Shown: in pieces, positions 4,377 to 26,329 of the stretch
Position numbering within the stretch: position 1 is the stretch's first letter
Layout of the letters: each line of letters begins with the position of its first letter
DNA from: a virus
Direction: 5' to 3' (one strand)
IMG/VR virus record: IMGVR_UViG_3300025669_000114
Coordinates: 1-36,353 of that record
DNA: 36,353 bases
Translations under genes and position numbers: made by a program
The notes under the pieces: model-generated
What the model was told of the DNA's origin: nothing
Seen by the model: the letters and a program-made list of their open reading frames with translations, nothing else
Databases searched by the model: none

Positions 4377-4548
4377 CTCGTAATCTCCTTCTTACTGGTT
4401 CCATTAGTTTTCTTTGTTCTTTTCTGTGTTTAAATTTTGCTGTTTTACCCCAACACTCGTTGCATTTGAAGTGATGGTCTGTGACTTTCTTTCCACAACT
4501 ACATTTTTCTATTAATGGTTTTACTCTTTCCATCTTGTATCCTTTCAT
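4369..4548 (-). CDS. Small zinc-binding basic protein (59 aa)
   Basis: ATG 4548 overlaps the stop of the upstream zinc-ribbon frame (ATGA), and the 3' end overlaps the nuclease gene start by 8 nt. CSCG (near residue 15) plus HH and CNEC form one zinc site. The C-terminus is rich in Arg/Lys. Probably nucleic-acid binding. Confidence 0.6.
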   Translation of the reverse strand: MKGYKMERVKPLIEKCSCGKKVTDHHFKCNECWGKTAKFKHRKEQRKLMEPVRRRLRDG

Positions 4549-4643
4549 TTTGCTCCACATTTGCATTTCCAGACTGGGATTCCGTAAACCCAATCAAAGT
4601 CTATTCCTGGGGTTCCGCAATGTGGGCATTCTTGCTGCTCCAC
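4545..4643 (-). CDS. GTG-start zinc-ribbon peptide (32 aa), possibly the end of a frameshifted gene
   Basis: Reads (M)EQQECPHCGTPG...WKCKCGAK: a classic zinc ribbon with CPHC and CKC. GTG 4643 has GAGAGG upstream. It lies in another frame inside the 3' part of the 45-residue gene 4594-4731, and its TGA overlaps the next ATG. The strong protein-like character and coupling support expression. The in-frame codons just upstream (E-E-I) follow a TGA, so it could also be the second half of a gene broken by or joined through a frameshift. Confidence 0.5.
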   Translation of the reverse strand: MEQQECPHCGTPGIDFDWVYGIPVWKCKCGAK

Positions 4644-4731
4644 GATTTCCTCTCAACAATCTTGATACTGGGTGTCCTTCTCTCCCTTCTGGGTATGAAG
4701 TCACTTTCACCTTCTTTTTGAATCCAAACAT
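4594..4731 (-). CDS. Short basic protein (45 aa), overlaps a zinc-ribbon frame
   Basis: ATG 4731 has a perfect archaeal-type site GGAGGTGA 4 nt upstream, so initiation here is very likely. It begins MFGFKKKVKVTSYPEGREG. The last ~20 residues are low-complexity (Arg, Asn, Pro), overlap the zinc-ribbon frame and look like the wrong frame of it. Either two overlapping genes or one gene needing a +1 shift near codon 26. Confidence 0.5.
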   Translation of the reverse strand: MFGFKKKVKVTSYPEGREGHPVSRLLRGNRGAARMPTLRNPRNRL

Positions 4732-5018
4732 TTTTCACCTCCGGTTTTATTTAGTTTTGATTGATTTTCTTTAAGACTCATGAGACTAATTCGATTTTCA
4801 ATATTATATTTTGCTGCCATCAAACCTCTTAAATTGAATAAATCAAGGATCTTATGAAATTCATCTATCTTTTTATAAAATTCCTGGCAATAAAGATTCC
4901 AAGAAAGTGAAAATCCAAACTCTTCAAGTTCATAAAATTCGTTTGGATATTGCTCCAAAATACATATAGTTGTTTCCTCTGCAAATCTCAAAAATATTTC
5001 TCGCATATTATACTTCAT
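4707..5018 (-). CDS. Hypothetical acidic/aromatic helical protein (103 aa)
   Basis: ATG 5018 overlaps the stop of the SWIM-HNH gene. Rich in Phe, Tyr, Leu and Glu, predicted all-helical (about residues 5-70). The C-terminal tail KTGGEKCLDSKRR encodes the ribosome site of the next gene. No recognised family. Confidence 0.6.
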   Translation of the reverse strand: MKYNMREIFLRFAEETTICILEQYPNEFYELEEFGFSLSWNLYCQEFYKKIDEFHKILDLFNLRGLMAAKYNIENRISLMSLKENQSKLNKTGGEKCLDSKRR

Positions 5019-5503
5019 TTCTTTGCTCCTGGGCTATTATGCCACTTTTGGAAGGTCACGATTTTATGATGTTCTTTGCATAGCCCGATGCAATTATCTT
5101 CGTTGTATTTTCCCCCGTTGGTTCTTGGAATCTTCCTGTGAATCTCATCAATCTTATTTTGGCATGGTCCACTCCAAATCGGCATCTCACACATTCCGCC
5201 TGACCTCTCCATGATTGTTCTTCTTAACTCTGCGCTGCATCTGTCTGACCCCTTCATTTCCTTTGGAGATTTTAGTGTGTACCCCTGTTTGATTAATGCA
5301 TCCACGACTGGTTTCAAGTGCTTGCATGGTTCTGCATAAAATTTCTTATCTGAGAATACTCCGTTGTGTTTGATTCTTCGATTCACAAAATTCCAGCAAG
5401 TGCAATCTAAAAAATAAATTGTCTTCGTCTCATCAATCATCTTAACTACACAATCATAAATCTCTCCCCTTGAACCTTTGGCTGTCCAAATCAAACTTCT
5501 CAT
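5015..5503 (-). CDS. SWIM zinc finger + HNH endonuclease fusion (162 aa)
   Basis: The N-terminal part has a SWIM-type pattern: DCTCWNF (CxC, residues 33-35) and later EPCKHL (CxH, about 58-60). The C-terminal part is an HNH nuclease: RSGGMCEMP, CQNKIDEIHRKIPRTNGG, DNCIGLCKEHH, with a metal-binding Cys pair and the catalytic His in EIHRKIP. It may be a DNA-targeting nuclease acting on host DNA or serving as a mobile endonuclease. SWIM and HNH in one short protein is unusual. Coupled by ATGA to neighbours. Confidence 0.7.
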   Translation of the reverse strand: MRSLIWTAKGSRGEIYDCVVKMIDETKTIYFLDCTCWNFVNRRIKHNGVFSDKKFYAEPCKHLKPVVDALIKQGYTLKSPKEMKGSDRCSAELRRTIMERSGGMCEMPIWSGPCQNKIDEIHRKIPRTNGGKYNEDNCIGLCKEHHKIVTFQKWHNSPGAKK

Positions 5504-5799
5504 AACAACTCCTCTTCTTTCAAAATAATCATAATCTCACAAAAAATCCCAAACACCACATACAGCACTAACAATGGATATCCAATAATCTCATTAAGGT
5601 TCTGCGCAAACTCACACATTTCTGTTGGGCACCCTTTTTCTGCGATTGTTACAAAATTTGGGAAGTGTGAAAAATATTCAACATGACTCTCAACTCCGTA
5701 TCCTGAATAAATTGCTACATGGACTTGCTCATGCATAACCCCCAATCCAATTGCTCCCAAAAAAAACACAACCATAAATATTGATGATAATCTTATCAT
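5500..5799 (-). CDS. Membrane protein with HExxH metalloprotease-like motif (99 aa)
   Basis: Two hydrophobic helices at about residues 4-21 and 72-92. Just after the first comes HEQVH (residues 23-27), the HExxH zinc-binding motif. The loop has two cysteines (CPTEMC) and a possible third ligand (Asn/Glu around NLNEIIGYP). It could be a minimal membrane-embedded metalloprotease or an inactive relative. Ends with Glu-rich cytoplasmic tail. Family not recognised; motif seen directly, activity inferred. Confidence 0.6.
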   Translation of the reverse strand: MIRLSSIFMVVFFLGAIGLGVMHEQVHVAIYSGYGVESHVEYFSHFPNFVTIAEKGCPTEMCEFAQNLNEIIGYPLLVLYVVFGIFCEIMIILKEEELL

Positions 5800-5996
5800 G
5801 CTATCTCTCCTATTCTAGAATTGAATTTTGGTGCTGGTGTTGCGTAAACTTGCATAAAATAATCTGTCATCATTTTTCTTGCATTAACTCTCTTCAAAAA
5901 AGATTCTCCATCTCTACTAAAAATTTCTAATCTAGGATCATCAAACATTCCGTAGTGCATCTGGATTAAGTTTCCGCAAGCCGATTCGCCTCTCAC
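5796..5996 (-). CDS. Hypothetical protein (66 aa), GTG start
   Basis: Starts with GTG 5996 overlapping the upstream TGA (GTGA). Mixed alpha/beta composition, with single Cys near the start and several Met and Phe. No motif recognised. Included because of its position in an unbroken overlap chain. Confidence 0.55.
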   Translation of the reverse strand: MRGESACGNLIQMHYGMFDDPRLEIFSRDGESFLKRVNARKMMTDYFMQVYATPAPKFNSRIGEIA

Positions 5997-6253
5997 TTTA
6001 AATCCTCCTGGGTGAGATTAAAAAAATTTATGAATCCAATCATTTCTCCCAAATTAGCCCAATCAATTGAGTTCATATTTTCTTTCTTTCTATGATGTCT
6101 AGTAACCATTCCATCAAATCCTATATCAAAACTAAATCCACCAGTATTTTTCGACTTAACCCATTTTATTGCTTCGGCCTTAAGTTCATGTATCAAAACA
6201 TAATTCCTTCTTCTTCCACAAATCTCTTTTTGAATTTCTCTTAAGGTTTTCAT
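5993..6253 (-). CDS. Hypothetical protein (86 aa)
   Basis: ATG 6253 overlaps the upstream stop. Begins with a helix (MKTLREIQKEI) and Arg-rich CGRRRN, then GFSFDIGFDGMVTRHHRKKEN in a likely beta region, and ends FNLTQEDLK. No family recognised. Basic middle may contact nucleic acid. Confidence 0.55.
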   Translation of the reverse strand: MKTLREIQKEICGRRRNYVLIHELKAEAIKWVKSKNTGGFSFDIGFDGMVTRHHRKKENMNSIDWANLGEMIGFINFFNLTQEDLK

Positions 6254-6588
6254 ATCAAACCCTCCTCATCGATTCCAGCTTCATCAGTATCCACTTCTTT
6301 TGGTTCTTCAACACTCTCACATTCTTCTTCTGGTTCTCCATCCCTTTGCTTTTGTAGGAGTCTGTCGATTTCATTACTTGCTTCTTGTTTTGACATTGAT
6401 GAGTCTGCCTTTCCGCCGAGCTTCTTTATGTAGCCTAGTTGTCCTGGGGTTGAGGTTCCTGTCATTGGCTTCTTCTTCTCATTATATCCTTGTTTGTTTG
6501 GGATTGAAATTCTTGACATCTTCTCCTCTAGGACTTCGATTCTCTTTAGTGCGCTTGCAAGTGCTTCTTCATATATTTTGTTATTCAT
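6250..6588 (-). CDS. DUF3072-like motif protein with acidic tail (112 aa)
   Basis: An N-terminal coiled coil (about residues 3-25) is followed by the segment TPGQLGYIKKLGGKADSSMS and KQEASNEIDRLL (about 48-79). This resembles the DUF3072-type motif (TPxQ...Y...L...KxEASxxIDxL) often found at ends of phage replication or nuclease-associated proteins. The tail is strongly acidic (EEECESVEEPKEVDTDE), like SSB-type tails that bind partners. Partner unknown. Confidence 0.6.
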   Translation of the reverse strand: MNNKIYEEALASALKRIEVLEEKMSRISIPNKQGYNEKKKPMTGTSTPGQLGYIKKLGGKADSSMSKQEASNEIDRLLQKQRDGEPEEECESVEEPKEVDTDEAGIDEEGLI

Positions 6589-6790
6589 TTGTCACCTCGG
6601 CTTTTTCATGTAATGCGAACAATTCTTTTTTAACTAATAATAACGCTTGATGAGATTTAACAAATATCTTCATTTCAATATCAAGATTAATATCATTACT
6701 TGTTTCTTTCTTTTCTAAAATTTCTTGTATTATATCAAAATAAGCTCCTATATGTTTATTAAAAACCTTTTCTATCTGTTCTATTTTCAT
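6581..6790 (-). CDS. Helical protein with FALHE tail (69 aa)
   Basis: Predicted all-helical and charged. The C-terminus ELFALHEKAEVTNE resembles the ends of the next two upstream genes (MFALHEDQLNVKE and DFAVYTDDALNVKG). Overlaps the downstream ATG by 8 nt. No family recognised. Confidence 0.55.
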   Translation of the reverse strand: MKIEQIEKVFNKHIGAYFDIIQEILEKKETSNDINLDIEMKIFVKSHQALLLVKKELFALHEKAEVTNE

Positions 6791-7065
6791 TCAGATACCT
6801 CTTTGACATTTAACTGGTCTTCATGTAGTGCGAACATCTCTTTCCAGTCTTCAAATAATCGATTAAACATTTCTCTGTCTTGAAAATATAAATAATCTCC
6901 TTGTTTTCTTTTTCTAGCATGATAAACTCCATTACCCATATTCCTATCCATTTCTCTTTGGACAAAATCTTTAGGTAATGCGTGTAATCTTTTTTGTTCT
7001 TGTTTTACTCTTTGCTCATGTCTTACGTTCAACACTTCTCTAAACATCTTCTTTGTTAATTTCAT
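6787..7065 (-). CDS. Basic helical protein with FALHE tail (92 aa)
   Basis: Rich in Arg, Lys, Gln and His over residues 1-60, likely helical and possibly nucleic-acid binding; then DYLYFQDREMFNRLFEDW and the tail MFALHEDQLNVKEVSE, shared in pattern with its two neighbours. ATGA-coupled at both ends. Function unknown. Confidence 0.55.
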   Translation of the reverse strand: MKLTKKMFREVLNVRHEQRVKQEQKRLHALPKDFVQREMDRNMGNGVYHARKRKQGDYLYFQDREMFNRLFEDWKEMFALHEDQLNVKEVSE

Positions 7066-7208
7066 TGTGATTCTCCTTTGACATTTAAGGCGTCGTCGGT
7101 ATAGACTGCGAAGTCTTCTTGACTCTCTGGTGCTAATGCTCTACAAGTTTGTGCTGGTAAACTTGCCGCTTCTTTTACTTCTTCTACAAATTCTTTATGT
7201 GTTTTCAT
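7062..7208 (-). CDS. Small acidic protein (48 aa), first gene after leader copy 2
   Basis: ATG 7208 sits at the end of the conserved leader element with AAAGGAG upstream. Residues 1-15 are helical; the C-terminus DFAVYTDDALNVKG matches the tail of the next gene, and 13 bases (TTAAATGTCAAAG) are identical between the two 3' ends. Stop overlaps the next ATG. Possibly a short binding-peptide carrier. Confidence 0.55.
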   Translation of the reverse strand: MKTHKEFVEEVKEAASLPAQTCRALAPESQEDFAVYTDDALNVKGESQ

Positions 7209-7237
7209 TGTTTCTCCTTTTGCGTTCCGCGCCCGGA
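7205..7237 (-). promoter_or_regulatory. GC-rich leader element, copy 2
   Basis: Second copy of the block at 1702-1733 with two mismatches, again ending in AAAGGA(G)AAACA-ATG. CCGGGCGCGG stands out in an AT-rich genome. An A/T tract precedes it (7238-7262). Confidence 0.5.
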
Positions 7238-7262
7238 TAATAAAAAAATAAAAAAAAGTTAT
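7238..7262 (-). terminator. T-rich terminator tract
   Basis: Only A and T on the transcribed strand apart from one base, directly after the 62-residue gene. Same arrangement as at 1734-1759: T-rich tract, GC-rich element, next gene. Confidence 0.35.
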
Positions 7263-7268
7263 TATTAT

Positions 7269-7457
7269 TTATTCGATTTTCTCTCCGTATCTAGCTTGGC
7301 ATATTAGTTCGAGTTCTATCATCTTATCTAGGGCTTTGTCTGGGTTATCGTTGTAGACTTTGATTTCCCAATTATAGCCTTTGGTGTTTCGTACAACCTT
7401 TACGCTACTTCGTTGTTCTGCGGTGAAGTTTTGTGAGTTCTCTATTTCTTCTGCCAT
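7269..7457 (-). CDS. Small beta-strand protein (62 aa), recombination-cluster partner
   Basis: ATG 7457 abuts the stop of the upstream gene (TAATG). After ~18 polar residues the segment VKVVRNTKGYNWEIKVYNDNP is predicted beta hairpin, followed by a helix (DKALDKMIELELICQARYG). This K-G-Y-N-W-E-I-K pattern occurs in small phage proteins next to recombination genes. It was probably the direct downstream neighbour of the annealing-protein gene before the endonuclease inserted. Function unknown. Confidence 0.6.
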   Translation of the reverse strand: MAEEIENSQNFTAEQRSSVKVVRNTKGYNWEIKVYNDNPDKALDKMIELELICQARYGEKIE

Positions 7458-7981
7458 TATTCTTTTGGAACCTCAGAAGTTTCTTCGACTGATACTTTTG
7501 CGTTGTTTGTTGCGAACCTTAATGCTCTAGCTATTGCTCTTGTTTGATACCACTCTTTATGGTTTTTTCTTAATTTCATTTCTTCTTTACTGTGACAACT
7601 CTTACATAATGTTATTAAATTATTTAATGAATTGTCGAAACTAAATAAAAAAGGGACTTTATGATGTACGTGAAATGCTTCTTTACTATTCCTCATTAAT
7701 CTTTTACAGTGTTGACATGTATAATTATCTCTTGAATAGATTAAAAGTCTTATATTACTCCAATCATCACCATATCTATCTGGACTTCTTATTTTACTTC
7801 TTCCATCAACATAATTCCAAGGTCTTTGTCCTTTTTTGAACTCATATTTAGGATGTTTTCCTTTCGCATATTGATTTCCTTTAGGAAATTTATTTGTAAC
7901 TATTCCATTTGGATAATGTTTCAAATATTCTTTTCCAGTAAGTCCTTTATTCCATGGTATTGTTCCTTTTTTTGGTGCCAT
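7457..7981 (-). CDS. HNH homing endonuclease with NUMOD3-like repeats and captured target C-terminus (174 aa)
   Basis: Start ATG 7981 lies 2 nt after the stop of the annealing-protein gene; the longer reading would extend into that gene. Residues ~3-13 (KKGTIPWNKGL) and ~59-68 (KKGQRPWNYV) are NUMOD3-type DNA-binding repeats. HNH core: CQHC, HVHHKVPF, N-L-I-T-L-C-K-S-C-H. The last ~30 residues (from RAIARALRFATNNAKVS) match the C-terminus of the upstream protein, but the DNA is recoded. This is a homing endonuclease inserted near the end of its host gene. Confidence 0.8.
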   Translation of the reverse strand: MAPKKGTIPWNKGLTGKEYLKHYPNGIVTNKFPKGNQYAKGKHPKYEFKKGQRPWNYVDGRSKIRSPDRYGDDWSNIRLLIYSRDNYTCQHCKRLMRNSKEAFHVHHKVPFLFSFDNSLNNLITLCKSCHSKEEMKLRKNHKEWYQTRAIARALRFATNNAKVSVEETSEVPKE

Positions 7982-12368: not shown

Positions 12369-14564
12369 TTATGTGTCTAGCTCATGCTTACATTTAATTG
12401 TTCCCTGAATTAGATCTGCGCTTGCATTGTTGGTCAAAACTCTGGCCCTCCAAAATCCCGCCGCATCAGGATATGTTCCTCCATCACTCAAATCAACATC
12501 ATAGTCTATTATTTTTCCAGTTGTTAGAATTGAGTGTTTGTTTATCCAAGCAGTTCCATTCCAAAAATCTACATAAATGTTTACACTCGTTGCATTAACA
12601 CTTCCGGCATCAGAGATTCCATCTCCAATTGAAACGCTATGATTGTGACTAGCTGCTCCGTATGAACCGTCATCGTGACCATGACTTGCCGCTGAATATG
12701 AACCGTCATCGTGGTCATGATCTGCTGCATAATAACTCCCGTCATCGTGGTCATGACTATTTGCATAATATGAACCGTCATCGTGAGAATGTTTTGCTGT
12801 ATAAATTCCCAAGTAACAACTCAGACTTATTGCTCCTGTTTGTGGCCTAACCTGAATAAAAATATCATGAGTGCTTGAAGTAACGGTTCCAACTGGGATT
12901 TGTGTGACTTTTATCATTGAAGTATCCCTAAACCCATCACTATAAGTTCCCCAAACAGTTCCCCCAGAACCAACAGATCCTGGTTCAATATATCCATACA
13001 CTGAATCGTTCCCAATTCTAACTTGAATATCTTCATCTCCACCACTACTTCCCATAACCGTAAAATCTGCAAGCAATGTTTGATTGAGATAAGATGATCC
13101 TGGTCTGACTGTTGCTACGGTTGTCCAACTGCCAGAAGAACATGCCACAGTTGACATGCTATCCGTACCTACACTTGAATAATAATAAAAAGTTCCTGAA
13201 TCTCCAGAGACTCCTGGAGTTGTGTTCGATGATGATCCAGAGACTCCTGGTTGTGTGCTTGCAGAGGTCCCTGAGACTCCTGGCGCTGTGCTTGCGCTTG
13301 TTCCACTAACTGTTGGCGCAACATCTGTTTCGCTTGCACTTCCTACTCCTGATCTGAATGGATCCACATCATAATCTAATTTAAAAGAATTAACTCTCAA
13401 ATTTCCAGCTTCGTCTGTGATATCACTAGCTGAAAAATATGCTTTGACTCTCAATGGCGCTGAATTGTTTGCATTAATCATCTCACTAAAAGTTAAAATG
13501 TTTGTTGTTCCCTGCATATATGTTGAAGTGTCATTGGTTCCTTTTTGTAATTCTGCAAGATATTTCTCCATGCTTCTTTCTTTTTGTGAGTATTCTTTGT
13601 TTGTTACCTGCAATGTCAAAAATTCTTCACTTCCCCTGACTCCTCTTTCTAGTCCTACGATTCTTACTTCTTCGTTTGATAGGCCTTTTGTCTGAGCGTT
13701 CAAAGTCACAACATCCCCAGAAACCACATTTAAGTTTGGGTTGATAACATCAAATTGATAAACACTCACAGGATCCTTCCACTTGGCCACTAATTTGTCA
13801 GCCATGTTATTTGCTTGGTCCTGTGTAATAATTGAAGGATCAGTATAATCTTTTTGGATTGTTCCATAGGTTGCTTTGGAAGTTGCGTCTTGCCCGTACG
13901 CGCCTGTTGATTTTATTTGGTTATCTCCATCCCCTTTCCCAAAAACTCTCACGTCATTTGCTATTGGATACGATTTTCTGACTGTTAGATCTGTAATCTG
14001 TAACCGATCGTTTAATGTTGTCACGCTTGTTGAACTTCCTTTGTGATCTAAAATATCCACTTCCAAATTTGTATAATCGATTCCGATGTCTTGTGCTGTA
14101 CTTCTTATTAAATTTGAAAGTCCATTATAAAGACTCGATGATGATTCCAATTTTAAGTCAATGCTTGCTCCGGCTTCTATTGTTCCGGCACTAAGATATG
14201 AACTCTCTCCGATTATGGCCGCCGCAATTGTAGCACTTGCTTCTGATGTCCATGGGCTATCTGCGTATGCTCCGTTTTCTTTTCCTAGCCAAACCTCAAA
14301 ACCTTTCAAGTCTGCAGAGATTCCTCCGGCGTTTAAATAAGAAAGTGAATTGATTAATCCAACAAATTCCAAACTACCATTCCTATAAAAATAAACTTTC
14401 GAACCTATCTCAAATAATCCTCTTTTTGTTTGGCCTGTACCTGTGATTCTTAACTGGCCTTCATTCAATTCATTCAAATTGTCTACATAAGAGAACGCAC
14501 TGTCTGGAATAACTGTTCCGGCTAGTCCGCTTGTGTTTTCTACCTTTATAATATACTGGCTCAT
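12369..14564 (-). CDS. Tail hub/fibre protein with repeats (731 aa)
   Basis: The N-terminal ~330 residues resemble tail hub or baseplate proteins of siphoviruses (late-control gpD/Tal type): QLRITGTGQTKRGLFEIGSKVYFYRNG, ...VVSGDVVTL... Then a helical linker and a beta-rich fibre part, a flexible stretch of four 11-residue PGVSG-type repeats (about 411-458), a beta domain, a His-rich HxH repeat (about 592-640) and a C-terminal beta domain. The HxH array suggests a trimeric metal-bound needle. Probable receptor-binding or tail-tip protein. Confidence 0.7.
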   Translation of the reverse strand: MSQYIIKVENTSGLAGTVIPDSAFSYVDNLNELNEGQLRITGTGQTKRGLFEIGSKVYFYRNGSLEFVGLINSLSYLNAGGISADLKGFEVWLGKENGAYADSPWTSEASATIAAAIIGESSYLSAGTIEAGASIDLKLESSSSLYNGLSNLIRSTAQDIGIDYTNLEVDILDHKGSSTSVTTLNDRLQITDLTVRKSYPIANDVRVFGKGDGDNQIKSTGAYGQDATSKATYGTIQKDYTDPSIITQDQANNMADKLVAKWKDPVSVYQFDVINPNLNVVSGDVVTLNAQTKGLSNEEVRIVGLERGVRGSEEFLTLQVTNKEYSQKERSMEKYLAELQKGTNDTSTYMQGTTNILTFSEMINANNSAPLRVKAYFSASDITDEAGNLRVNSFKLDYDVDPFRSGVGSASETDVAPTVSGTSASTAPGVSGTSASTQPGVSGSSSNTTPGVSGDSGTFYYYSSVGTDSMSTVACSSGSWTTVATVRPGSSYLNQTLLADFTVMGSSGGDEDIQVRIGNDSVYGYIEPGSVGSGGTVWGTYSDGFRDTSMIKVTQIPVGTVTSSTHDIFIQVRPQTGAISLSCYLGIYTAKHSHDDGSYYANSHDHDDGSYYAADHDHDDGSYSAASHGHDDGSYGAASHNHSVSIGDGISDAGSVNATSVNIYVDFWNGTAWINKHSILTTGKIIDYDVDLSDGGTYPDAAGFWRARVLTNNASADLIQGTIKCKHELDT
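12635..12795 (-). repeat. 36-bp tandem repeat encoding HDHDDGSYYAAS units
   Basis: Four 12-residue units (H-x-H-D-D-G-S-Y-x-A-x-x) plus a terminal H-N-H inside the 731-residue tail protein. HxH motifs in T4 long tail fibre needles bind iron and hold three chains together. Confidence 0.75.
13195..13330 (-). repeat. 33-bp tandem repeat encoding PGVSGTSAST units
   Basis: Four units of 11 residues rich in Ser, Gly, Thr and Pro in the same tail protein; a flexible linker between hub and fibre parts is likely. Confidence 0.65.
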
Positions 14565-16809: not shown

Positions 16810-17775
16810 TTAGTAATCTGTGAGTGCATCGTTCGCAACGATCGCAACTGATTTAATTGTTCCTACCACATCAACGTTTGTTATCCCGTCCAAGTTTGTT
16901 GGACTCGTTGCCTGTTGTAAGTATAAATCTGTAAACGTGAACGTTACGTCATCTGCTGGTCCAGTTCCTCGAATTAAAGCCAAGCTGTTTGTACCGGGTA
17001 CAACTACCTCATCTTCAAAATCGTCAAAGTAAGTATCATCTTTTTGATTTATGTTAAATCTGCAAGTGTATCTTCTTACTTTTGGAATTGGTTCTCCAAT
17101 CGATTGTGCCAGTGTTGAATTACAATATCTCGAATCTTCTTCATCGATTCCATTGTCAATCGTCAATTCTCCTGAATTAACTTCTGTGATTTCACTTCCT
17201 GCATAAGTTAACTTAGCCATTCTGAATTGGAATCCGTCAGCTACTTCTGCTGATATTGATGTTGTGCTTGTTCCGGCTACTGCCGATTTTGCAATACATT
17301 CAGCTGTCACTGTTACGAATCCTTCAGTCGGACCTGTTCCGGCCGCGAAGTTCATTGTCAAATTTGTTATAACACATCCTGTCAAAGTTATTACATGGTC
17401 TGTACTTCCTCGTTTTGCCCATTCTAATGTGAAAGATTTTACAACGTCTGTTGCTGTGAAAGTATGCACTGTTGGCGCTGTGCTTGTGTTCGACACAGTT
17501 CCATGAGCACAATATCTCAAAAACTTCCAATTTGTTGGTACAAACTCTAAAGAAAATTTATAAGTTTCTGGTCCCTTTTCCATCGAATCCATATCTCTTG
17601 AATCTGCACCTGCAGTCAATATCTCTTGCCAATTCTTTGAAAAGTCTGGAGTTATCTTCGTATTTTTACCAACGATATAACCATCATCTACCATCGTACT
17701 TGTTCCTAAAGTTGCCCATGTATCTTCTTCGCACATTGCGATTTGCTCTCTCTTACCAATCATATATTCTGTCAT
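16810..17775 (-). CDS. Major tail tube protein (321 aa)
   Basis: Beta-rich, with pattern typical of tail tubes: opening MTEYMIGKREQIAMCEEDTWATLG, KFSLEFVPTN, SFTLEWAKRG, RMAKLTYAGSEITEVNSGELTIDNGIDEE and a closing VTFTFTDLYLQ. Longer than many tail tube proteins (~200 aa), so an added Ig-like domain is likely. Located before the chaperone pair, the normal order. Strong ribosome site with GGAGGTTAA. Confidence 0.75.
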   Translation of the reverse strand: MTEYMIGKREQIAMCEEDTWATLGTSTMVDDGYIVGKNTKITPDFSKNWQEILTAGADSRDMDSMEKGPETYKFSLEFVPTNWKFLRYCAHGTVSNTSTAPTVHTFTATDVVKSFTLEWAKRGSTDHVITLTGCVITNLTMNFAAGTGPTEGFVTVTAECIAKSAVAGTSTTSISAEVADGFQFRMAKLTYAGSEITEVNSGELTIDNGIDEEDSRYCNSTLAQSIGEPIPKVRRYTCRFNINQKDDTYFDDFEDEVVVPGTNSLALIRGTGPADDVTFTFTDLYLQQATSPTNLDGITNVDVVGTIKSVAIVANDALTDY

Positions 17776-17795: not shown

Positions 17796-18542
17796 TTAAT
17801 TGCTCTCCGACACGTTAATGCCTTTTAGTTCTACTTCAACTATCGAATGAAAACATTCCAATTCTGTGCTGAATCCCATGTCTCTCGGAATCCCTACTGG
17901 AGTGTAATTGTATAATTCTGGGTGCAAGTCGTTTTCGTATGATCTAAAAGCCGCCATCAATTGATGTGCCAAATATTCCGCAAGCTTATCTCCTTCGTAT
18001 TTTACTCCATCAATTGTTTGAGGTTGATTTTCTTTTGTCCAGATGTCTATTTGGAAATGGATCGCGCTTTCGATGTCTGAATTGTATTGTCCCATTCTTC
18101 CTCCGGATCCTCCAACCACTAACACGTTCATTCTTGGGAATGATGTTTTGCTTAGGGAGACTTTTGCCTTGTCCGGATAAATCCAATTTGTAGTTCCTCG
18201 CTTATAGGTAATATCCACGTTGTTTGTTCCGGCCGCAGTGTTTGAATAAAAAATAACCTTTTGGTTTTGCCAGTCAATCCAATAATCTTCATATTTTACT
18301 TGTGCAGTTCCATCAACCGTCACAGAAACAATACAGGACATCGTTCCAGCTGTTGGCGTCAATTGAAAATCTGTGCTTCCTCCATCGAACTCTTCTGTTT
18401 GTGAAGTTTCTGCTCTACTCCGGGGATCTGTCAATCTCCTTCTAAGAAAATCTACTATTACATTTTTGGGACTTATGAATACCATCTTTGGTTGTTTAAT
18501 GCCTCTTGGCAAATCATCCGAGTGGATAATATGATAATTCAA
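17796..18542 (-). CDS. Tail terminator/neck-type protein (248 aa)
   Basis: Between the gp10-like and tail tube genes, the place for the tail terminator. The N-terminus has PKNVIVDFLRRRLTDPRSR, a common opening of such proteins. A beta insert (about 48-120) contains VDGTAQVKYEDYWIDWQNQKVIFYS. The C-terminal part has HFQIDIWTKENQ and LAEYLAHQLMAAF, matching terminator-like ferredoxin folds. Assigned from order and motifs. Confidence 0.6.
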   Translation of the reverse strand: MNYHIIHSDDLPRGIKQPKMVFISPKNVIVDFLRRRLTDPRSRAETSQTEEFDGGSTDFQLTPTAGTMSCIVSVTVDGTAQVKYEDYWIDWQNQKVIFYSNTAAGTNNVDITYKRGTTNWIYPDKAKVSLSKTSFPRMNVLVVGGSGGRMGQYNSDIESAIHFQIDIWTKENQPQTIDGVKYEGDKLAEYLAHQLMAAFRSYENDLHPELYNYTPVGIPRDMGFSTELECFHSIVEVELKGINVSESN

Positions 18543-18562: not shown

Positions 18563-18985
18563 CTACTTGCCTTTCTTCATAACTTGATTAAAATATCTAT
18601 CAACCCAAATTCCTTTCACTTGGTCAAGCGCCGGCCTAAAAAATGGCTGAGCTCTTGTTCCTGGGTGCATTACCTTTTTAGAAAAGATTGTTTTTCCATC
18701 AGATTTGAATTTTAAGGCCTTCTTCGCATTTGGTCTTATGATATGAGGACTTGTTCCGAACTCAACATCTGGCGCATATTCTACATCATCATAAAGTAAA
18801 TAATTATTAAATCCCATGGTTGTTGGGTTTATCTTGATTCCATTCCACAATCTTCCCTTATCGACAGGACAATTAATGATCGCCAATTCTTGCATCTTCA
18901 ACATCGATTTAAATAAAACCTTTCTTAACTGGTCAATCGTCAATCCCTTGTCTATCTTGCTTTGGATATTAAAATTTATTTTCAT
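18563..18985 (-). CDS. HK97 gp10-like neck protein (140 aa)
   Basis: Start ATG 18985 overlaps the upstream stop. Key motifs: CPVDKGRLWNGIK, YAPDVEFGTSPHIIRPN, and HPGTRAQPFFRPALD, the hallmarks of the HK97 gp10 family of head-tail connector or tail-completion proteins. Virion assembly role at the head-tail joint. Confidence 0.8.
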   Translation of the reverse strand: MKINFNIQSKIDKGLTIDQLRKVLFKSMLKMQELAIINCPVDKGRLWNGIKINPTTMGFNNYLLYDDVEYAPDVEFGTSPHIIRPNAKKALKFKSDGKTIFSKKVMHPGTRAQPFFRPALDQVKGIWVDRYFNQVMKKGK

Positions 18986-19386
18986 TGGGTTAGTCCTATC
19001 TTTTTCAATACTGCTGTCCGGAAGATTTCTTTTGATTTTGCTTTTCTCCCACCGACAATTTGTTCTATCCTCCACCAAAAATTATTCTTATCCAGAATCA
19101 TATCTCCTGCTTGAACTATCATATCTCCATGCCCTGTGATTGATTCTGGATACTCATTATAAAAAAATCCTTTCACGTTCCCGGTGATTGCCAAACCCAT
19201 CTCATGAATCTGACGGTCCTTCTTTGTGATATCTTGCATAACAAAAAATATCGTATAACCGGATTGTGCGATTGATTTTGTGTCACCCATGCTTCCGATG
19301 TTTTCTGTTTCTTTAATTAGACTTCCTTGCATCCCATGTGTCTTAATTATCCCATGGAAGTCCTCTCTCATTGATTCGTAGCTCAT
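18982..19386 (-). CDS. Head-tail closure/stopper-like neck protein (134 aa)
   Basis: Predicted alpha/beta: MSYESMREDFHGIIKTHG, TIFFVMQDITKKDRQIHEMG, GFFYNEYPESITGHGDMIVQAGD, FWWRIEQI, IFRTAVLKKIGLTQ. It lies just before the gp10-like gene where stopper proteins are found. Its sequence is closely repeated in the C-terminal 130 residues of the adjacent giant fibre protein, a tandem duplication. ATG 19386 overlaps the fibre gene's stop. Confidence 0.65.
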   Translation of the reverse strand: MSYESMREDFHGIIKTHGMQGSLIKETENIGSMGDTKSIAQSGYTIFFVMQDITKKDRQIHEMGLAITGNVKGFFYNEYPESITGHGDMIVQAGDMILDKNNFWWRIEQIVGGRKAKSKEIFRTAVLKKIGLTQ

Positions 19387-22300
19387 TGGTCTAACTCCAA
19401 CTTTTTAATTATTGCACTCTTGAATATTTCTGATCCATCCATTTCTCTTTCTCCGTTGATTGTCTCAATCCTCCAATATTCTTCGTCATCGTCTTTTATA
19501 ACATCTCCCACCTGTGCGCTTACAACACCATTTCCTGTGATTGAGTCCGGATACTCGTGGAATAAGAAAATCCTTGCTTCTCCTGTAAAAGCAGAGCCCA
19601 TATCTCTCAATTGTCTATCTTCTCTTAAAATATCCTGAATAGACATGTATATCGCGTAGGATGCCTCCGATACGGCTGTCACAGCTCCAGTGGTGTCTTT
19701 TGTTTCAGTTTGCCTGATAAGTGTTGCCTCTATTCCTTCTTCTGTTATAATGGCTTGTATGTCCGTTCTGGCCGATGCAACTCTGAAACTATTAAACACG
19801 ATATTCAAGAAGAAATCATCAAAGTTGAAATCCTCAGTTAACATCTTAATAAAATTAAAAGTGCTGCCATCATCCAAACTTAATGACTCCAATAATTCTA
19901 AAAATCTTATCTTCAAAACTTCTAGATCATCACTCAAATTTGTTATCTCAGATATGATCCTTCCGATTGTAAAGTTCTTTGTGTCTGTTAAATTCAAACC
20001 TTCAACCAATTCCTTAATTATTTTGTGGATATCTCCATCTGATAAATTCAAAACATCGGATAGTGATTTGATTGTTTGCTTGGTTACGACATCCCCCATT
20101 GTTTGGGATTCACTCAATATCTTTGTTATCGATCTTGTCAAGCTATCTCCTAGTTCGAATGTGTCTATTAGGATTCTTGATGTTGCTTTTACTACTGATG
20201 CGTTCAAATTCATCTCTTCTGAATATTCTCTTGCCAAATCCCAAATTTTCGAATACTCGTCTGATGTACTTATTGATTCAGTAAGTAATTTTAAAATCCA
20301 TTTGTCTGCCTGCAAATCATCACTAAAATTATAAGATTCAATTAGCTCTCTCAATAATGTATTTACTTCATCATCCGTTAAACCGAACGCCTCACTCAGA
20401 ATTCTTGTGAATGCTATCGAATCTCCATCTGTGATTGAAAAGATTTCGTTTAAAGTTCTTCTAACATCCCACGTTCTAGAATAATATTCCACCAAATTAA
20501 AACTCTCAATCATTGTTTTCAGTAACGTTGCGATTGTTGTCACATCATCAGTCATGTTCATTGTCTCAGAATATTCCCGATTCAAACTCACTGTTTTTGT
20601 CAATTCATCTAATAAACTCAAACTCTCAGATAAACTTCTAAACATCGATTTTAAAACCTCATCTGATAAACTCAAACTTTCAGAGTATTCTCTTTCCAAA
20701 GTCCAAATCTTTGAATACTCATCCAATAAATTTGTAACATCTGTTAATGATTTGTTTATTTGAAATGTTTTTGAATCAGTCAATCCGATTTCTTCTCCTG
20801 GGAAGTTCAAACCCCATGTGATCGTTTGTTGATTTGTCAAAGTGGTTGTTTCCGAGAAGGTCCTATTTATGCTCAATTGTCTTAATACTTCAGCACTTAC
20901 TCCAATCGATTCGTTAAGGACTTTTATAATATTTGAAAAATCCCCATCGGAAAGGTTCAATATTTCTGTGATGTTCTTATCAATTAAAAAAGACTTTGCA
21001 TCTGATAAACTCAAACTCTCCTCGATATTCTTATTCATCAAAAATGATTTCAAATCTGATAAATCAAATGTTTCATTAATGTTTCTGTTCATGGAAAACG
21101 TTTTTAAATCTGATAAATTAAAAGTTTCATACTTTTCTGTTTGAGTTCCCTTATTTGTTACGTCTGATAAGTTAAAACTATTTTGGATGTTATGATCAAT
21201 AAAAAATGATTTCAAATCTGATAAATTGAAAGTTTCTTGATTTAATTTGTTTATTGATGATGTTTTCAAGTCTGACAAACTTAAACTATCATCGATGTTT
21301 CTGTTCATAGAAAATATTTCTAAATCTGATAAATTGAAGCTTTCTCCTGGAAAAAGAAAAACTAACGAGATAAGTTGCTCATTTGTCAAATTTGTTGTTT
21401 CTGAAAGAATTATAACTTTTTGGATTTGTCTGAATAAATCCGCACTTAATCCAAATGATTCACTAAATGTTTTTAGGATATTTGCGAAGTCTCCATCGGA
21501 AATGTTTAAAGTTTCTTGAATGTTTTTGTTAATCAGAAATGATTTCAAATCTGATAAATTGAAAGTTTCTTGAATGTTTTTGTCAATCAAGAATGTTTTT
21601 AGATCTGACAAATTGAAGCTCTCATCGATGTTTCTGTTCATAGAAATTGCTTTCAAATCTGATAAACTAAAATTTTCAAGTATTGATTTTATTCCTTGTT
21701 TTGAAATATCTCCGGATAAAGAAAAACTATCAGAGTATTCTCTTTCAAAATCAATCCTACGACTAAAATTTGAAGATAAACTAAAACTCTCAGGAATATT
21801 TCTATTTGAAGATAATGATTTTAAATCATTAAAATTAAATTCTTCCGTATATGTTTCATCATATTCTGTTCCTCCAGCTACTACGGTGAACGTTCCATCC
21901 TCCGTAAATGTATGAACGGTGTTATCCCCGTCTGTCGTCTTTGTTCCACCTGTACAAGTTCCAAAGTTCGCTGTTACATAGGAAATAATAACAACACCAC
22001 TTCCACCATTACCAGCTGTATAACCACTAGTACGAACACCTCCGCCACCGCCACCTGTGTTGGCTGTACCTGAAGTTGCGTTTGAGTTTGCAATACCACC
22101 TGCACCACCGCCTCCGGTTCCTCCTGCTCCAGCAGTAGAGTCACCACCTCCACCGCCACCTCCGCCATAAGTTACCGGACTTCCGGTTATAGAATTTGCT
22201 GTCCCATCTCCACCATCTCCGCCTGCTCCAGAACCAACAGCCCCGACTTCACTTGAACCTCCACCGCCACCGCCATTATTCCCATTTGGGTCTCCTCCAT

Positions 22301-22634
22301 CATATCCCTGTCCAACGGTTCCGCTACCACCGACTTTGGTGTAACATCCTCCACCACCAGAACCACCATCTTGACCATCTATATAAGCAGAAGAATTGTA
22401 AGCACCACCACCTCCACCACCAGTTGCTGTGATTGTACTAAACACAGAATCTTCTCCATCTCCGCCAATATCATCATTAGCAGCAGCACCACCATCTCCA
22501 ACAGTTATAGAATATGCTTGTGGCGTTACTGTAAGAATTGCATCATATAATAAACCACCTGCACCTCCTCCTCCGCCTACCCATCCTCCGCCTGCACCTC
22601 CGCCGGCAACAACAAGAGCCTTAACTGTTACCAT
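19383..22634 (-). CDS. Giant neck-anchored fibre/adhesin (1083 aa)
   Basis: Three parts. Residues 1 to ~245: Gly-rich domain (many GGGG runs, ITVGDGGAA, VVIISYVT), like glycine-rich adhesin tips of phage fibres. About 260-945: around 36 repeats of 18-20 residues with core [ST]-[FL]-x-L-[ST]-D, a long rod. About 950-1083: a copy of the neck protein encoded just downstream (shared ILREDRQLRDMG / ITKKDRQIHEMG, HEYPDSITGNG / NEYPESITGHG, IFKSAIIKKL / IFRTAVLKKI). A fibre anchored at the neck with a receptor-binding N-terminus is inferred. Confidence 0.7.
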   Translation of the reverse strand: MVTVKALVVAGGGAGGGWVGGGGGAGGLLYDAILTVTPQAYSITVGDGGAAANDDIGGDGEDSVFSTITATGGGGGGAYNSSAYIDGQDGGSGGGGCYTKVGGSGTVGQGYDGGDPNGNNGGGGGGSSEVGAVGSGAGGDGGDGTANSITGSPVTYGGGGGGGGDSTAGAGGTGGGGAGGIANSNATSGTANTGGGGGGVRTSGYTAGNGGSGVVIISYVTANFGTCTGGTKTTDGDNTVHTFTEDGTFTVVAGGTEYDETYTEEFNFNDLKSLSSNRNIPESFSLSSNFSRRIDFEREYSDSFSLSGDISKQGIKSILENFSLSDLKAISMNRNIDESFNLSDLKTFLIDKNIQETFNLSDLKSFLINKNIQETLNISDGDFANILKTFSESFGLSADLFRQIQKVIILSETTNLTNEQLISLVFLFPGESFNLSDLEIFSMNRNIDDSLSLSDLKTSSINKLNQETFNLSDLKSFFIDHNIQNSFNLSDVTNKGTQTEKYETFNLSDLKTFSMNRNINETFDLSDLKSFLMNKNIEESLSLSDAKSFLIDKNITEILNLSDGDFSNIIKVLNESIGVSAEVLRQLSINRTFSETTTLTNQQTITWGLNFPGEEIGLTDSKTFQINKSLTDVTNLLDEYSKIWTLEREYSESLSLSDEVLKSMFRSLSESLSLLDELTKTVSLNREYSETMNMTDDVTTIATLLKTMIESFNLVEYYSRTWDVRRTLNEIFSITDGDSIAFTRILSEAFGLTDDEVNTLLRELIESYNFSDDLQADKWILKLLTESISTSDEYSKIWDLAREYSEEMNLNASVVKATSRILIDTFELGDSLTRSITKILSESQTMGDVVTKQTIKSLSDVLNLSDGDIHKIIKELVEGLNLTDTKNFTIGRIISEITNLSDDLEVLKIRFLELLESLSLDDGSTFNFIKMLTEDFNFDDFFLNIVFNSFRVASARTDIQAIITEEGIEATLIRQTETKDTTGAVTAVSEASYAIYMSIQDILREDRQLRDMGSAFTGEARIFLFHEYPDSITGNGVVSAQVGDVIKDDDEEYWRIETINGEREMDGSEIFKSAIIKKLELDQ
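19800..21860 (-). repeat. ~36 degenerate 54-60 bp repeats encoding LSD units
   Basis: Units such as ETFNLSDLKSFLINKNIQ recur every 18-20 codons. A larger block of about ten units is itself duplicated: SDGDFANILKTFSESFGLSA and SDGDFSNIIKVLNESIGVSA are followed by TTNLTNEQ/TTTLTNQQ and FPGE in each. Confidence 0.75.
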
Positions 22635-22708
22635 AATCTCATCCTATCCCATAATTTATCAATAAAAGAATTCTGAGGGAAAAAGAAATGCCAAATTTTA
22701 CGTATCAT
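22628..22708 (-). CDS. Aromatic/basic micro-protein (26 aa), tentative
   Basis: ATG 22708 overlaps the stop of the LamG gene (ATGA), and its TAA overlaps the fibre start. Reads MIRKIWHFFFPQ...RMRLW: an amphipathic, Trp-rich helix. May only be a translational coupling relay between two structural genes. Confidence 0.35.
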   Translation of the reverse strand: MIRKIWHFFFPQNSFIDKLWDRMRLW

Positions 22709-23379
22709 CCAAACCTCACATCAAAAATCTTAATAGGTACTGGATCTTCTGTGAATGGATAAGCCAAACCATCTCCACCATTTCTTAATAAAGTTACCTC
22801 GTCAGAAGTCAAACTTTTATTCCAGATTCCTACTTCATCAATCAATCCGTCCCATAATCCTGTGGTTGAACCTATAAAAATATCTTGTGCTAGAGTGAAT
22901 CCACTGTCTATATCACTCCACGTCACAGTTGAAACCCCATTAACATATAAAATAGCACTTGCCCCATTTATAACAGCAACTATATGTGTCCATTCATTAC
23001 TCGCTGTTGCTTGTCCAGTTCCTTCTCCAATTCCATGCGTAGCAATACCAAAATCCCATTTAGATGAATAATTTCCAATATAAAATCTATGGTCTGATGT
23101 TGCTGATGCCCATATTGCTCCATACTTATCTGATGTATAATCTGTTGGTTTGGCCCAAAATGAAACACTAAACCCAGAATAAAGTGTCGTCCCACTTCCA
23201 AAATTCAAATCTATATTATCATTGGTTCCATCAAAACCAATCGAAGTTCCTATCTTTCCACTTTGAGAATATAAAGCTCCGGTGTATGTCCCGTCGTTGC
23301 TTCCGTGTGCATCTATAATTGAACCACTAGCCTCATCCAATTTATAGTAACTAATTAAACCATCAATTAACGCCATCAT
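22705..23379 (-). CDS. LamG/concanavalin-like domain protein (223-224 aa)
   Basis: Clear LamG jelly-roll signature: ISYYKLDEASGSIIDAHGSNDG, FDGTNDNIDLNFG, FSVSFWAKPTD, EWTHIVAVING, ILYVNGV, IFIGSTTGLWDGLIDEVGIWNKSLTSDEV. This fold binds glycans or proteins. Located between the glycosyltransferase and the giant fibre, so a virion adhesin or decoration is likely. Two ATGs (23379, 23376); either may be used. Confidence 0.8.
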   Translation of the reverse strand: MMALIDGLISYYKLDEASGSIIDAHGSNDGTYTGALYSQSGKIGTSIGFDGTNDNIDLNFGSGTTLYSGFSVSFWAKPTDYTSDKYGAIWASATSDHRFYIGNYSSKWDFGIATHGIGEGTGQATASNEWTHIVAVINGASAILYVNGVSTVTWSDIDSGFTLAQDIFIGSTTGLWDGLIDEVGIWNKSLTSDEVTLLRNGGDGLAYPFTEDPVPIKIFDVRFG

Positions 23380-24665
23380 TCCTCCATTAAAGACATAATT
23401 TTTTTATTCTTTTCTTCGGATCCTTTGAAGTGGCCTGGATGGATATCTTCTGCTCCGAATGAAACTGTGGCCATAATTTTTCCCCCTGGTTTCAAAAGAC
23501 TTTTTATCAAAGCAATTGTTTCGTCGAATTTGTCGTCTGGGATATGTTCCAAAACATCAAAGCATAAAATTATATCATACTTATTTTTAAAATCCTTATG
23601 AATCGGCATCGGAATCACTTTAATCTTTTGACGCCTCTTTGTAAATCTATGAGAAATAAAATCTAATGATTTTTTATTGTAATCACAAGCTGAAACAATA
23701 TATTTTTCTTTTGCTAACATGTACGACACTTGACCTGCTCCACTTCCGAAGTCTAGTATCTCTGTTCCTCTGTCAGGGAATTGTTGTTTTATCCCCTCAA
23801 CCAATTTCTTATCATAATTTCTTCGTCCCTTAAAATGCCACTCTAAATGATCATAAATTTCAAAGTTATTGTTTTTGTAATATTCCAGGACTTGTTCTGA
23901 GTCTGTGAAGTCCACCTTGTCCATTTCTTCTTTTCTTAATTCGAACCTCTTGACAAATCGTCTCAAAACTTCTTCTCTGGGTACCTTTTCAAATTTAACT
24001 AAATCCTCAATCATTTCTTCTCGATCGTCTTTGTCGATTTTTAATTGTTCTTTGTACATCATAAAATGCGCAGGTCCTACCTCCGCGCCAAAATGCTCAC
24101 AGACAACTCCTGTGTTTAAAAAAATCTTATGCCCTTTCTCAACGGCTTCATCACAAAAATATAAATCCTCTGCGATTTGGTATTTGATTCCGTCCTTCTC
24201 TCTCCATTCTAATTTAAAATAAGGAAATTCCATCCCTTCAAATATTTTGGTTTTGATTAAACAACATCCCATCCCGACTCCCTGGACTTCCATTATTTGA
24301 TTAAACTCAAAATCTTCTAGAAAACAATGCTTATCTCCTTCTTTCATTCTTGCCACTGGCAAGTAGGGTTTACCCTTACTAAAATAAAGGCCAGATGCAA
24401 TATCCACATCCATTGCCAATAAAGTATCAAGTGCTCCGCTTGGGATGATTGTGTCTGAGTCGATAAATAAAATATAATCACAATTATCTTTAAGGGCCAT
24501 TCTTACAAGTTCGTTTCGTGCCTTGTCAACTATAGTGGAGTTCTGCAAATAAATCTGGACATCGTATCTTTCCTGTTGATAAAATTCACTAATACGATTA
24601 ATGAAATTAACAAAGAAACTTGCTGGAACTACGTTGTATAAAGGCACACATATTCCAATTTTCAT
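23376..24665 (-). CDS. Glycosyltransferase (GT-A) + SAM methyltransferase fusion (429 aa)
   Basis: Residues 1 to ~205: GT-A glycosyltransferase with KIGICVPLYN, KARNELVRMAL, FIDSDT (DxD-type metal site) and the later EDLYFC and VCEHFG. Residues ~280-429: class I methyltransferase with motif I EILDFGSGAGQVSYMLA, acidic CDYN and motif IILCFDVLEHIPDD. A helical linker joins them. Likely glycosylates and methylates a virion protein or sugar. Embedded among structural genes. Stop overlaps the LamG start. Confidence 0.8.
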   Translation of the reverse strand: MKIGICVPLYNVVPASFFVNFINRISEFYQQERYDVQIYLQNSTIVDKARNELVRMALKDNCDYILFIDSDTIIPSGALDTLLAMDVDIASGLYFSKGKPYLPVARMKEGDKHCFLEDFEFNQIMEVQGVGMGCCLIKTKIFEGMEFPYFKLEWREKDGIKYQIAEDLYFCDEAVEKGHKIFLNTGVVCEHFGAEVGPAHFMMYKEQLKIDKDDREEMIEDLVKFEKVPREEVLRRFVKRFELRKEEMDKVDFTDSEQVLEYYKNNNFEIYDHLEWHFKGRRNYDKKLVEGIKQQFPDRGTEILDFGSGAGQVSYMLAKEKYIVSACDYNKKSLDFISHRFTKRRQKIKVIPMPIHKDFKNKYDIILCFDVLEHIPDDKFDETIALIKSLLKPGGKIMATVSFGAEDIHPGHFKGSEEKNKKIMSLMEE

Positions 24666-24678
24666 TGTTCTAGGTTAA

Positions 24679-25164
24679 TTACGCAACAGTTACTTTCCAA
24701 GTAATTTGTAAGGTGTCACCATCTGCTACATTGATCGCACTGAATGTCTGTCTACACAACATTGTTCCTTCGCTTGATGCGTTCAAAACTGCTGATTCTG
24801 TCACTGCTACTGATCCAGTAACTGTAAAAGACTTTAGGAATTGTGCTGTATCATCTGTCACATTTTCTGTCACTGATGTACCAGTTCCGGCTGCTCTTGC
24901 CAAACCATTTTCAGTTTCTTCAGTTTCCAAAGTTGTATCAGTTGCCGTTGCAGTTGTTGTTCCTGTACCTACTGCGATGTAATCGAATGCTGTATAAGAT
25001 CCTGCTTGGTCTGTGTTGAACAATCCTGCTACTTCTTTAAACCCTAAATTCATCAATGCGTTTGGAGTATTTACAGTTTCCATCAAATTTCCAACATTGT
25101 CAAAATGCTCTATTTTAATAAATCCCTGTAGCTGAGCTCCCTCACTTTTTAAATTTTGTTTCAT
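24679..25164 (-). CDS. Beta-rich virion structural protein (161 aa)
   Basis: GGGAGGTTAA before ATG 25164. Contains FIKIEHFDNVGNLMET, FDYIAVGTGTTTA, TVTGSVAVTESAVLNAS and LQITWKVTVA: Thr/Ala/Gly-rich strands like phage head- or tail-decoration proteins of this type. Function in virion surface inferred. Confidence 0.55.
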   Translation of the reverse strand: MKQNLKSEGAQLQGFIKIEHFDNVGNLMETVNTPNALMNLGFKEVAGLFNTDQAGSYTAFDYIAVGTGTTTATATDTTLETEETENGLARAAGTGTSVTENVTDDTAQFLKSFTVTGSVAVTESAVLNASSEGTMLCRQTFSAINVADGDTLQITWKVTVA

Positions 25165-25507: not shown

Positions 25508-26329
25508 TCAAATAATATAAGGCCGAATGCTTATTCTAGACATTATTTGGTCTCTCTCCTTTATTAGTTGATTAGCCGCTTCACGCCATTGTGTGTAAGG
25601 TTCACCCTTTTGTATATGCAATTCTCCCAATGTATAACCTGTGTTATCACTATAGGATTGTCCAATAATTCTTGCAACCAATGCAATACCACAAACGATA
25701 TTCATTAACTTTGTGAAGTTGATGTCTATCTCTAGTTTCACGATCGTGCTTCCGGCTTCATGTGTTTCTACGAATTGGTCAATTGTTAATATCCCGGTTG
25801 CTACTGTCGATACCTGCGCGACTTCTCTGTGTCCATCCATTCCAAAAATTTCAACCCAGTCATCCTCTGTGAAATCAGTTGAGCTAGAAACTGCCACTGA
25901 GATAGCTGTCCCGGCAACCTCATCTTCAGAGGATGATGTGCTGATTGTATCTGAATGAATAACGCTTCCATATAAATATTTCACAACTACTGAATTCTTT
26001 TTATTTGCGAATGTTGGTGATGTTGCTCCGGATCCTAAAAAAATAAAACCTGACTCTTTGTAAACTTCCAAGTTCACTGGATCCTCTGTTTCCCCATCAA
26101 TCTTAATTTCCCTAACTGCCAATACTGGATTCTTCTCCAGGAGATGTCTATTCGTTCCGTCCCCATCATTTATCTCGATTCTTTCTGTTGGTACGAATAC
26201 TGTGTTGAACATTCTTGGGACTTGTTTTTCTACTTCTGCTATTGTGGCCTCAACATCCACATCATTAATCTCTGCGACTTTGATTCCGCACGTTCGCCTA
26301 ACACTTGCAACATCTACATAAGTTCCCAT
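25508..26329 (-). CDS. Head-tail adaptor-like protein (273 aa)
   Basis: Helical N-terminus (YVDVASVRRTCGI..., IEATIAEVEKQVPRMFNTVF) followed by a beta insert (about 50-190) and C-terminal helices (LMNIVCGIALVARIIG, QWREAANQLIKERDQI), the plan of gp6/gp15-type connectors with an inserted domain. Its place after the capsid genes and before neck genes supports this. Exact family uncertain. Confidence 0.6.
   Translation of the reverse strand: MGTYVDVASVRRTCGIKVAEINDVDVEATIAEVEKQVPRMFNTVFVPTERIEINDGDGTNRHLLEKNPVLAVREIKIDGETEDPVNLEVYKESGFIFLGSGATSPTFANKKNSVVVKYLYGSVIHSDTISTSSSEDEVAGTAISVAVSSSTDFTEDDWVEIFGMDGHREVAQVSTVATGILTIDQFVETHEAGSTIVKLEIDINFTKLMNIVCGIALVARIIGQSYSDNTGYTLGELHIQKGEPYTQWREAANQLIKERDQIMSRISIRPYII

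Follow-up and report, generated by a model that had tools for sequence, protein, structure and literature searches.

The window analyzed here is the whole of IMG/VR virus record IMGVR_UViG_3300025669_000114 (36,353 bases). On its minus strand, between a head-tail adaptor gene and a gp10-like neck gene, lie two overlapping genes: one for a fibre protein of 1083 amino acids (aa) and, directly after it, one for a protein of 134 aa (Table 1). The last part of the large protein is a second version of the small one: residues 5-134 of the 134-aa protein align without gaps to residues 954-1083 of the fibre protein, with 53 of 130 positions identical (41%) and 85 similar (E = 6e-36), and tblastn with the small protein finds its second copy at 19386-19775 (E = 3.8e-33). 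An initial annotation, made from the sequence alone, had placed the 134-aa open reading frame (ORF) at 18982-19386 and the pair at 18982-22634, had described the small gene as repeated in the last ~130 residues of its upstream neighbor and had quoted three segments that the two share; the coordinates, the segments and the repetition are all correct, the alignment of the C-terminal region being significant at the E value given above. A chance or low-complexity match is ruled out, because the shared part is the non-repetitive C-terminus, the E value is low and the pair is conserved. At the level of genes, these are bare and extended paralogues of one ring protein, encoded by two separate continuous ORFs and not made by programmed frameshift.

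Table 1. Features of the neck region and neighboring genes in the window
Feature	Position	Strand	Basis
Bare stopper (head-closure) protein, 134 aa	18982..19386	-	AlphaFold model pLDDT 73.5; fold matches; PHROG_161 Hc1 in 11/30 relatives
Whole fibre protein, 1083 aa, from Gly-rich tip through repeat shaft to C-terminal stopper anchor (predicted)	19383..22634	-	ORF, profile, alignment
Second stopper domain (fibre residues 954-1083)	19386..19775	-	41% identity to bare stopper
Four-base overlap ATGA, fibre stop / bare stopper start	19383..19386	-	Sequence
Repeat shaft, about 37 units (fibre residues 264-950)	19785..21845	-	Period 18
45-residue tail of tip module (fibre residues 210-254)	21873..22007	-	80% identical to L047 fibre
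Gly-rich tip domain PF21722 (Gly_rich_2; fibre residues 4-219)	21978..22625	-	Pfam, E 3.1e-20
gp10-like neck / tail completion protein	18563..18985	-	PHROG_5, E 1.6e-15
Probable tail terminator	17796..18542	-	Position only; without profile match
Probable tail tube protein	16810..17775	-	Position only; without profile match
Head-tail adaptor	25508..26329	-	PHROG_442, E 1.7e-7
Other accessory cassette genes in the adaptor-stopper interval: LamG protein, glycosyltransferase/methyltransferase-like protein, 161-aa fibre-like protein	22705..25164	-	Pfam, PHROG matches

Judged by its modelled fold, the 134-aa protein is a stopper (head-closure) protein of the neck. An AlphaFold model built from 17 relatives shows a beta-barrel and, at the N-terminus, a helix; its confidence is moderate (predicted local distance difference test, pLDDT, 73.5). 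When this model was compared with the PDB by VIA-align, the first 36 rows were all phage neck, connector or stopper entries, with Z from 11.5 to 6.1 (phiCD508 11.5; T1 10.7; Chi and T4 gp14 both 10.0; phage 812 9.9; lambda 9.1; SPP1 gp16 8.5); XkdH and SF1141, which are among the structure matches, are listed as stoppers (PMC9701221). PHROG_161 (head closure Hc1) matches 11 of the 30 family members (best E = 7.8e-6), the window's own copy not being among them. Neither Pfam nor PHROGs offered a convincing family for the window's small protein, and a profile search of PDB sequences with it found no stopper; the link to known stoppers comes from structure and from relatives. Gene order agrees, with the PHROG_442 adaptor upstream and the PHROG_5 protein downstream, an order that relatives keep. 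Fold, gene order and the PHROG_161 matches together support the earlier description of the 134-aa product as a neck protein. The motif TKKDRQIHEMG, one of the most strongly conserved stretches in the family, lies in the model between two strands, with a short predicted helix; SPP1 gp16 has a loop that folds into the tunnel helix (PMC9701221), and we infer that the two may correspond.

The stopper identity of the last part of the fibre protein rests on homology to the bare copy. The protein begins with the Pfam domain Gly_rich_2 (residues 4-219, E = 3.1e-20), which bears out the Gly-rich, adhesin-like start of the initial annotation and is followed by a short tail. About 37 repeat units, mostly of 18-20 residues and with a strongest period of 18, then fill residues 264-950. 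This is close to the "about 36 LSD repeats" counted earlier, although the motif was named too narrowly: the literal LSD occurs in only 15 of the ~37 units, while 33 fit [LIMVF][ST][DE]. The shaft, whose fold has no confident prediction, gives a weak match to PHROG_12240 (a family of no assigned function), and tblastn of the stopper and of the shaft repeats against cultured phages returned no matches. No signal-like start was seen on the window's fibre protein, nor was a BppU-like collar domain found at its N-terminus, where the Gly-rich domain lies and the PHROG scan gave no such match.

Relatives share the repeat array and adhesin-type tip modules, but the tips are swapped: Gly-rich in the window and LamG domains in L007 and L006, with the stopper end kept in all. 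The tail of the window's tip module is 80% identical over 45 residues to that of the L047 fibre, while the L047 stopper is only 32% identical; similar tails occur in many other viral fibre ORFs, none of which carries this stopper domain. Exchange of the tip while the anchor is kept is the usual behavior of receptor-binding modules. The start of the fibre thus looks like an adhesin-type, exchangeable module, for which receptor binding is predicted.

The initial annotation had proposed looking for the same fusion in metagenomes, and the fused-plus-bare pair does recur in relatives from separate metagenomes. A repeat-bearing protein that ends in a stopper domain, with a bare stopper directly after it, is found in L003 (both of its proteins identical to those of the window), L004/L005 (89%), L006, L007/L008 and L042, the last a contig of a Nanoarchaeota metagenome-assembled genome (MAG); L021 has both copies apart, the bare one after the adaptor and the fused one before the gp10-like gene. 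Since the same kind of junction is present in separate metagenome contigs and in a GenBank MAG contig, an assembly chimera is ruled out. A maximum-likelihood tree separates a clade of bare copies (support 98/99) from a clade of fused ones (95/91; 95/69 with L021), so the pair is old, and a recent duplication private to the window virus is ruled out by the spread of the two clades across four lineages. Approximately unbiased (AU) tests gave no decision on the descent of the L021 pair from the same duplication.

Between the window and L004 the ratio of nonsynonymous to synonymous substitution rates (dN/dS) is about 0.05 and 0.09 for the two copies, that is, purifying selection acts on both. In all adjacent pairs examined the fibre stop overlaps the start of the bare stopper (ATGA in the window, L006, L007 and L042; TAATG in L004/L005), which suggests coupled translation of the two. 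In an alignment of ten sequences (A1), 35 positions identical in bare and fused copies are spread over the whole protein, and neither copy therefore seems to have lost one face. The two classes differ consistently at nine positions; at 100 (K/D) and 115 (K/E) they carry opposite charges, which is weak evidence for, and compatible with, an interface between bare and fused subunits.

Relatives with one stopper differ in the size of what is attached to it. Whole-record searches found a single stopper, with the adaptor also present, in L016, L018, L020, L025, L027, L029, L030, L036, L041 and L047; in nine of these ten records it has an N-terminal extension of 15-93 residues, which in several is a domain of 85-95 residues. 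Where both ends are known, very long extensions are confined to records with a bare partner (in L012, a record cut at its 5' end, the stopper has at least 158 extra residues). We read this pattern as steric relief, such that not every position of the ring could bear a large arm. Two further duplications were found: L028 has a tandem pair of stopper genes in which an extended copy precedes a bare one, and in L043 (2316-3197) two stopper domains are joined in one chain of 293 aa, which, on its sequence, is an independent duplication. Three such chains would fit a ring of six domains; the chain could also span two layers.

Taken together, these data point to a fibre that would act as a receptor-binding arm: its C-terminal stopper domain would hold it at the neck, within a ring whose other subunits are bare, and we consider this arrangement probable. 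Its parts differ in strength: sequence and fold give good inferential support for anchoring of the fibre at the neck, while the mixed ring, which the initial annotation had already proposed, is less certain, although favored over stacked rings, its main rival. An arm at the N-terminus of a stopper is plausible, since T4 gp14, the phage 812 stopper and a P1 connector protein align to the model only after N-terminal extensions of 37-89 residues, and the termini of the phage 812 stopper contact external decoration proteins, probably for the attachment of neck whiskers (PMC12886913). If not every position can bear an arm of 950 residues, bare 134-aa copies would fill the remaining places. After DNA packaging, bare and fused stoppers would bind beneath the adaptor ring, most simply in 3+3 alternation; the arms would point outward from the neck, and their tips would be the first part to touch the host surface, most likely that of a DPANN archaeon, before DNA delivery by the tail. 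More tentatively, then, the hetero-hexamer (probably 3+3) may be both genome seal and arm mount, viruses of DPANN archaea may have evolved such decorated/bare pairs repeatedly, and their first contact with the host may be made from the neck.

Several observations weigh against the arrangement favored here. The AlphaFold prediction for the C-terminal part of the fibre protein, shaft and stopper domain included, is of low confidence; the opposite charges at positions 100 and 115 concern two sites only; and the single stopper of L047 has no extension. The fibre fusion, moreover, is probably of single origin; finding it together with a bare partner would then count as one event and not many, and the distribution of extensions is a pattern, not statistical proof. 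In the rival arrangement the bare copies alone would build a stopper hexamer, with the fused copies stacked as a second ring or collar layer, giving a longer neck with fibres on a ring of their own. The long divergence of the copies into separate clades, the nine consistent class differences and the L043 chain, which could span two layers as well as one, would suit such stacking. We nonetheless think it unlikely, given that the positions conserved in both copies extend along the whole protein, neither copy having lost a face, that the phage 812 neck is described with one stopper hexamer (PMC12886913) and that SPP1 gp16 is hexameric, with six copies (PMC9701221).

Still less likely is that virions contain by chance either only bare stoppers or a few fused ones, the fibre being optional in the manner of the SPP1 FN3 domain. 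There are parallels – SPP1 virions with only gp17.1 are still infectious (PMC7666168), and the neck fibres of TP901-1 are described as non-essential (PMC4493119) – yet every close relative retains the pair, and purifying selection acts on the fused stopper domain. This selection, with the retention of the family's conserved residues, also speaks against the stopper end being a leftover on a protein that is released or displayed on the infected cell. Giant cassette neighbors in relatives do start with apparent signal peptides or membrane helices, but the fusion has no signal-like start, and we regard a role outside the virion as very improbable.

Neck fibres and mosaic tubes with decorated subunits are already known. 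The initial annotation knew of no system built this way, and a survey of the open-access literature (without most subscription papers) likewise gave no description of a stopper as fibre anchor or of paired decorated and bare stoppers, neck whiskers as such being known. SPP1 gp16, lambda gpFII, T4 gp14 and the PHROG_161 Hc1 proteins resemble the family of both copies in predicted beta-barrel fold and gene position, but the window has two paralogues, one of which terminates a fibre of 950 residues. T4 wac fibritin, XM1 gp40 and the phage 812 whiskers share with our proposal fibres that leave the neck; in the described cases a fibre or spike protein of its own is joined to the neck, whereas here stopper and fibre are one polypeptide. 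The neck passage structure of lactococcal 936 and P335 phages is likewise a large modular neck protein, with a carbohydrate-binding tip, but its anchor is N-terminal and BppU-like and its tips are C-terminal, whereas here the anchor is C-terminal and a stopper. In the SPP1 tail tube one ring protein occurs in bare and extended versions (gp17.1 and gp17.1*, 3:1, by frameshift; PMC7666168); that system differs in using frameshifting, the tail tube and a C-terminal FN3 domain in place of gene duplication, the neck and an N-terminal fibre.

The stopper is a core part of the DNA gate of long-tailed viruses. If one paralogue of its ring bears a receptor fibre, host contact would be mechanically tied to the gate of genome release, and the way in which a signal of binding could arrive at the neck would be open to direct test. 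Gene duplication would then be a route, other than frameshifting, to partial decoration of a symmetric ring, and the fused-plus-bare pair a sequence signature for spotting adsorption proteins in viruses of uncultured DPANN archaea.

The window virus probably infects tiny DPANN archaea. L042 is part of a Nanoarchaeota MAG, L043 of a different archaeal one, and a further match, L052, is in a genome of L042's phylum; because the L042 and L043 contigs are short (7.1 kb and 4.0 kb) and could be mis-binned, such a host is likely but not proven. A PHROG_161 search of 371 genomes of L042's phylum gave no matches, but as its control genomes gave none either, this negative is uninformative. Host contact away from the tail tip has a precedent in HFTV1, a haloarchaeal tailed virus in which 50-70% of particles contact the cell through the head (PMC9973310). 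A deacetylase-like domain is borne by the head turrets of this virus (PMC12494034), and a deacetylase domain is present in the L018 cassette too, in a protein that combines LamG with polysaccharide deacetylase and is encoded directly upstream of the stopper; the turrets, however, sit on capsid hexamers and not, as proposed here, on the neck.

The accessory cassette and its surroundings gave some further observations. One cassette protein of the window (23376-24665), present in relatives too, joins a glycosyltransferase-like N-terminal part to a methyltransferase C-terminal part. Giant proteins that begin with what looks like a signal peptide or membrane helix, unusual in a virion component, are encoded between adaptor and stopper in L016 (2627-5998), L018 (1561-4107), L020 (1543-7974), L006 (1701-5708) and L021 (3425-7120); such giants occur also in L027, L029, L030 and L036, while the window lineage is without them. 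In L047 a LamG plus Gly-rich repeat fibre (4168-7905) is directly upstream of an adaptor-like gene with an extra N-terminal region, as if in that lineage the adaptor were the decorated part; stop readthrough joining the two is ruled out by a TAA stop and a spacer between them.

Elsewhere in the window, a YQBQ-like tail protein (12369-14564) has a run of HDHDDGSY repeats that may bind metal. The gp10-like neck gene of L022 (1337-2685) appears broken by a split intein into two ORFs that overlap by ATGA: the first holds the N-terminal part of gp10 and the intein start; the next holds an endonuclease-like stretch, the intein end and the C-terminal part of gp10. In relatives, HNH-like genes are inserted into the neck-tail module, and the site of insertion varies (L004, 4697-5260; L012, 2149-2751; L019, 2339-2944; L030, 9719-10177).

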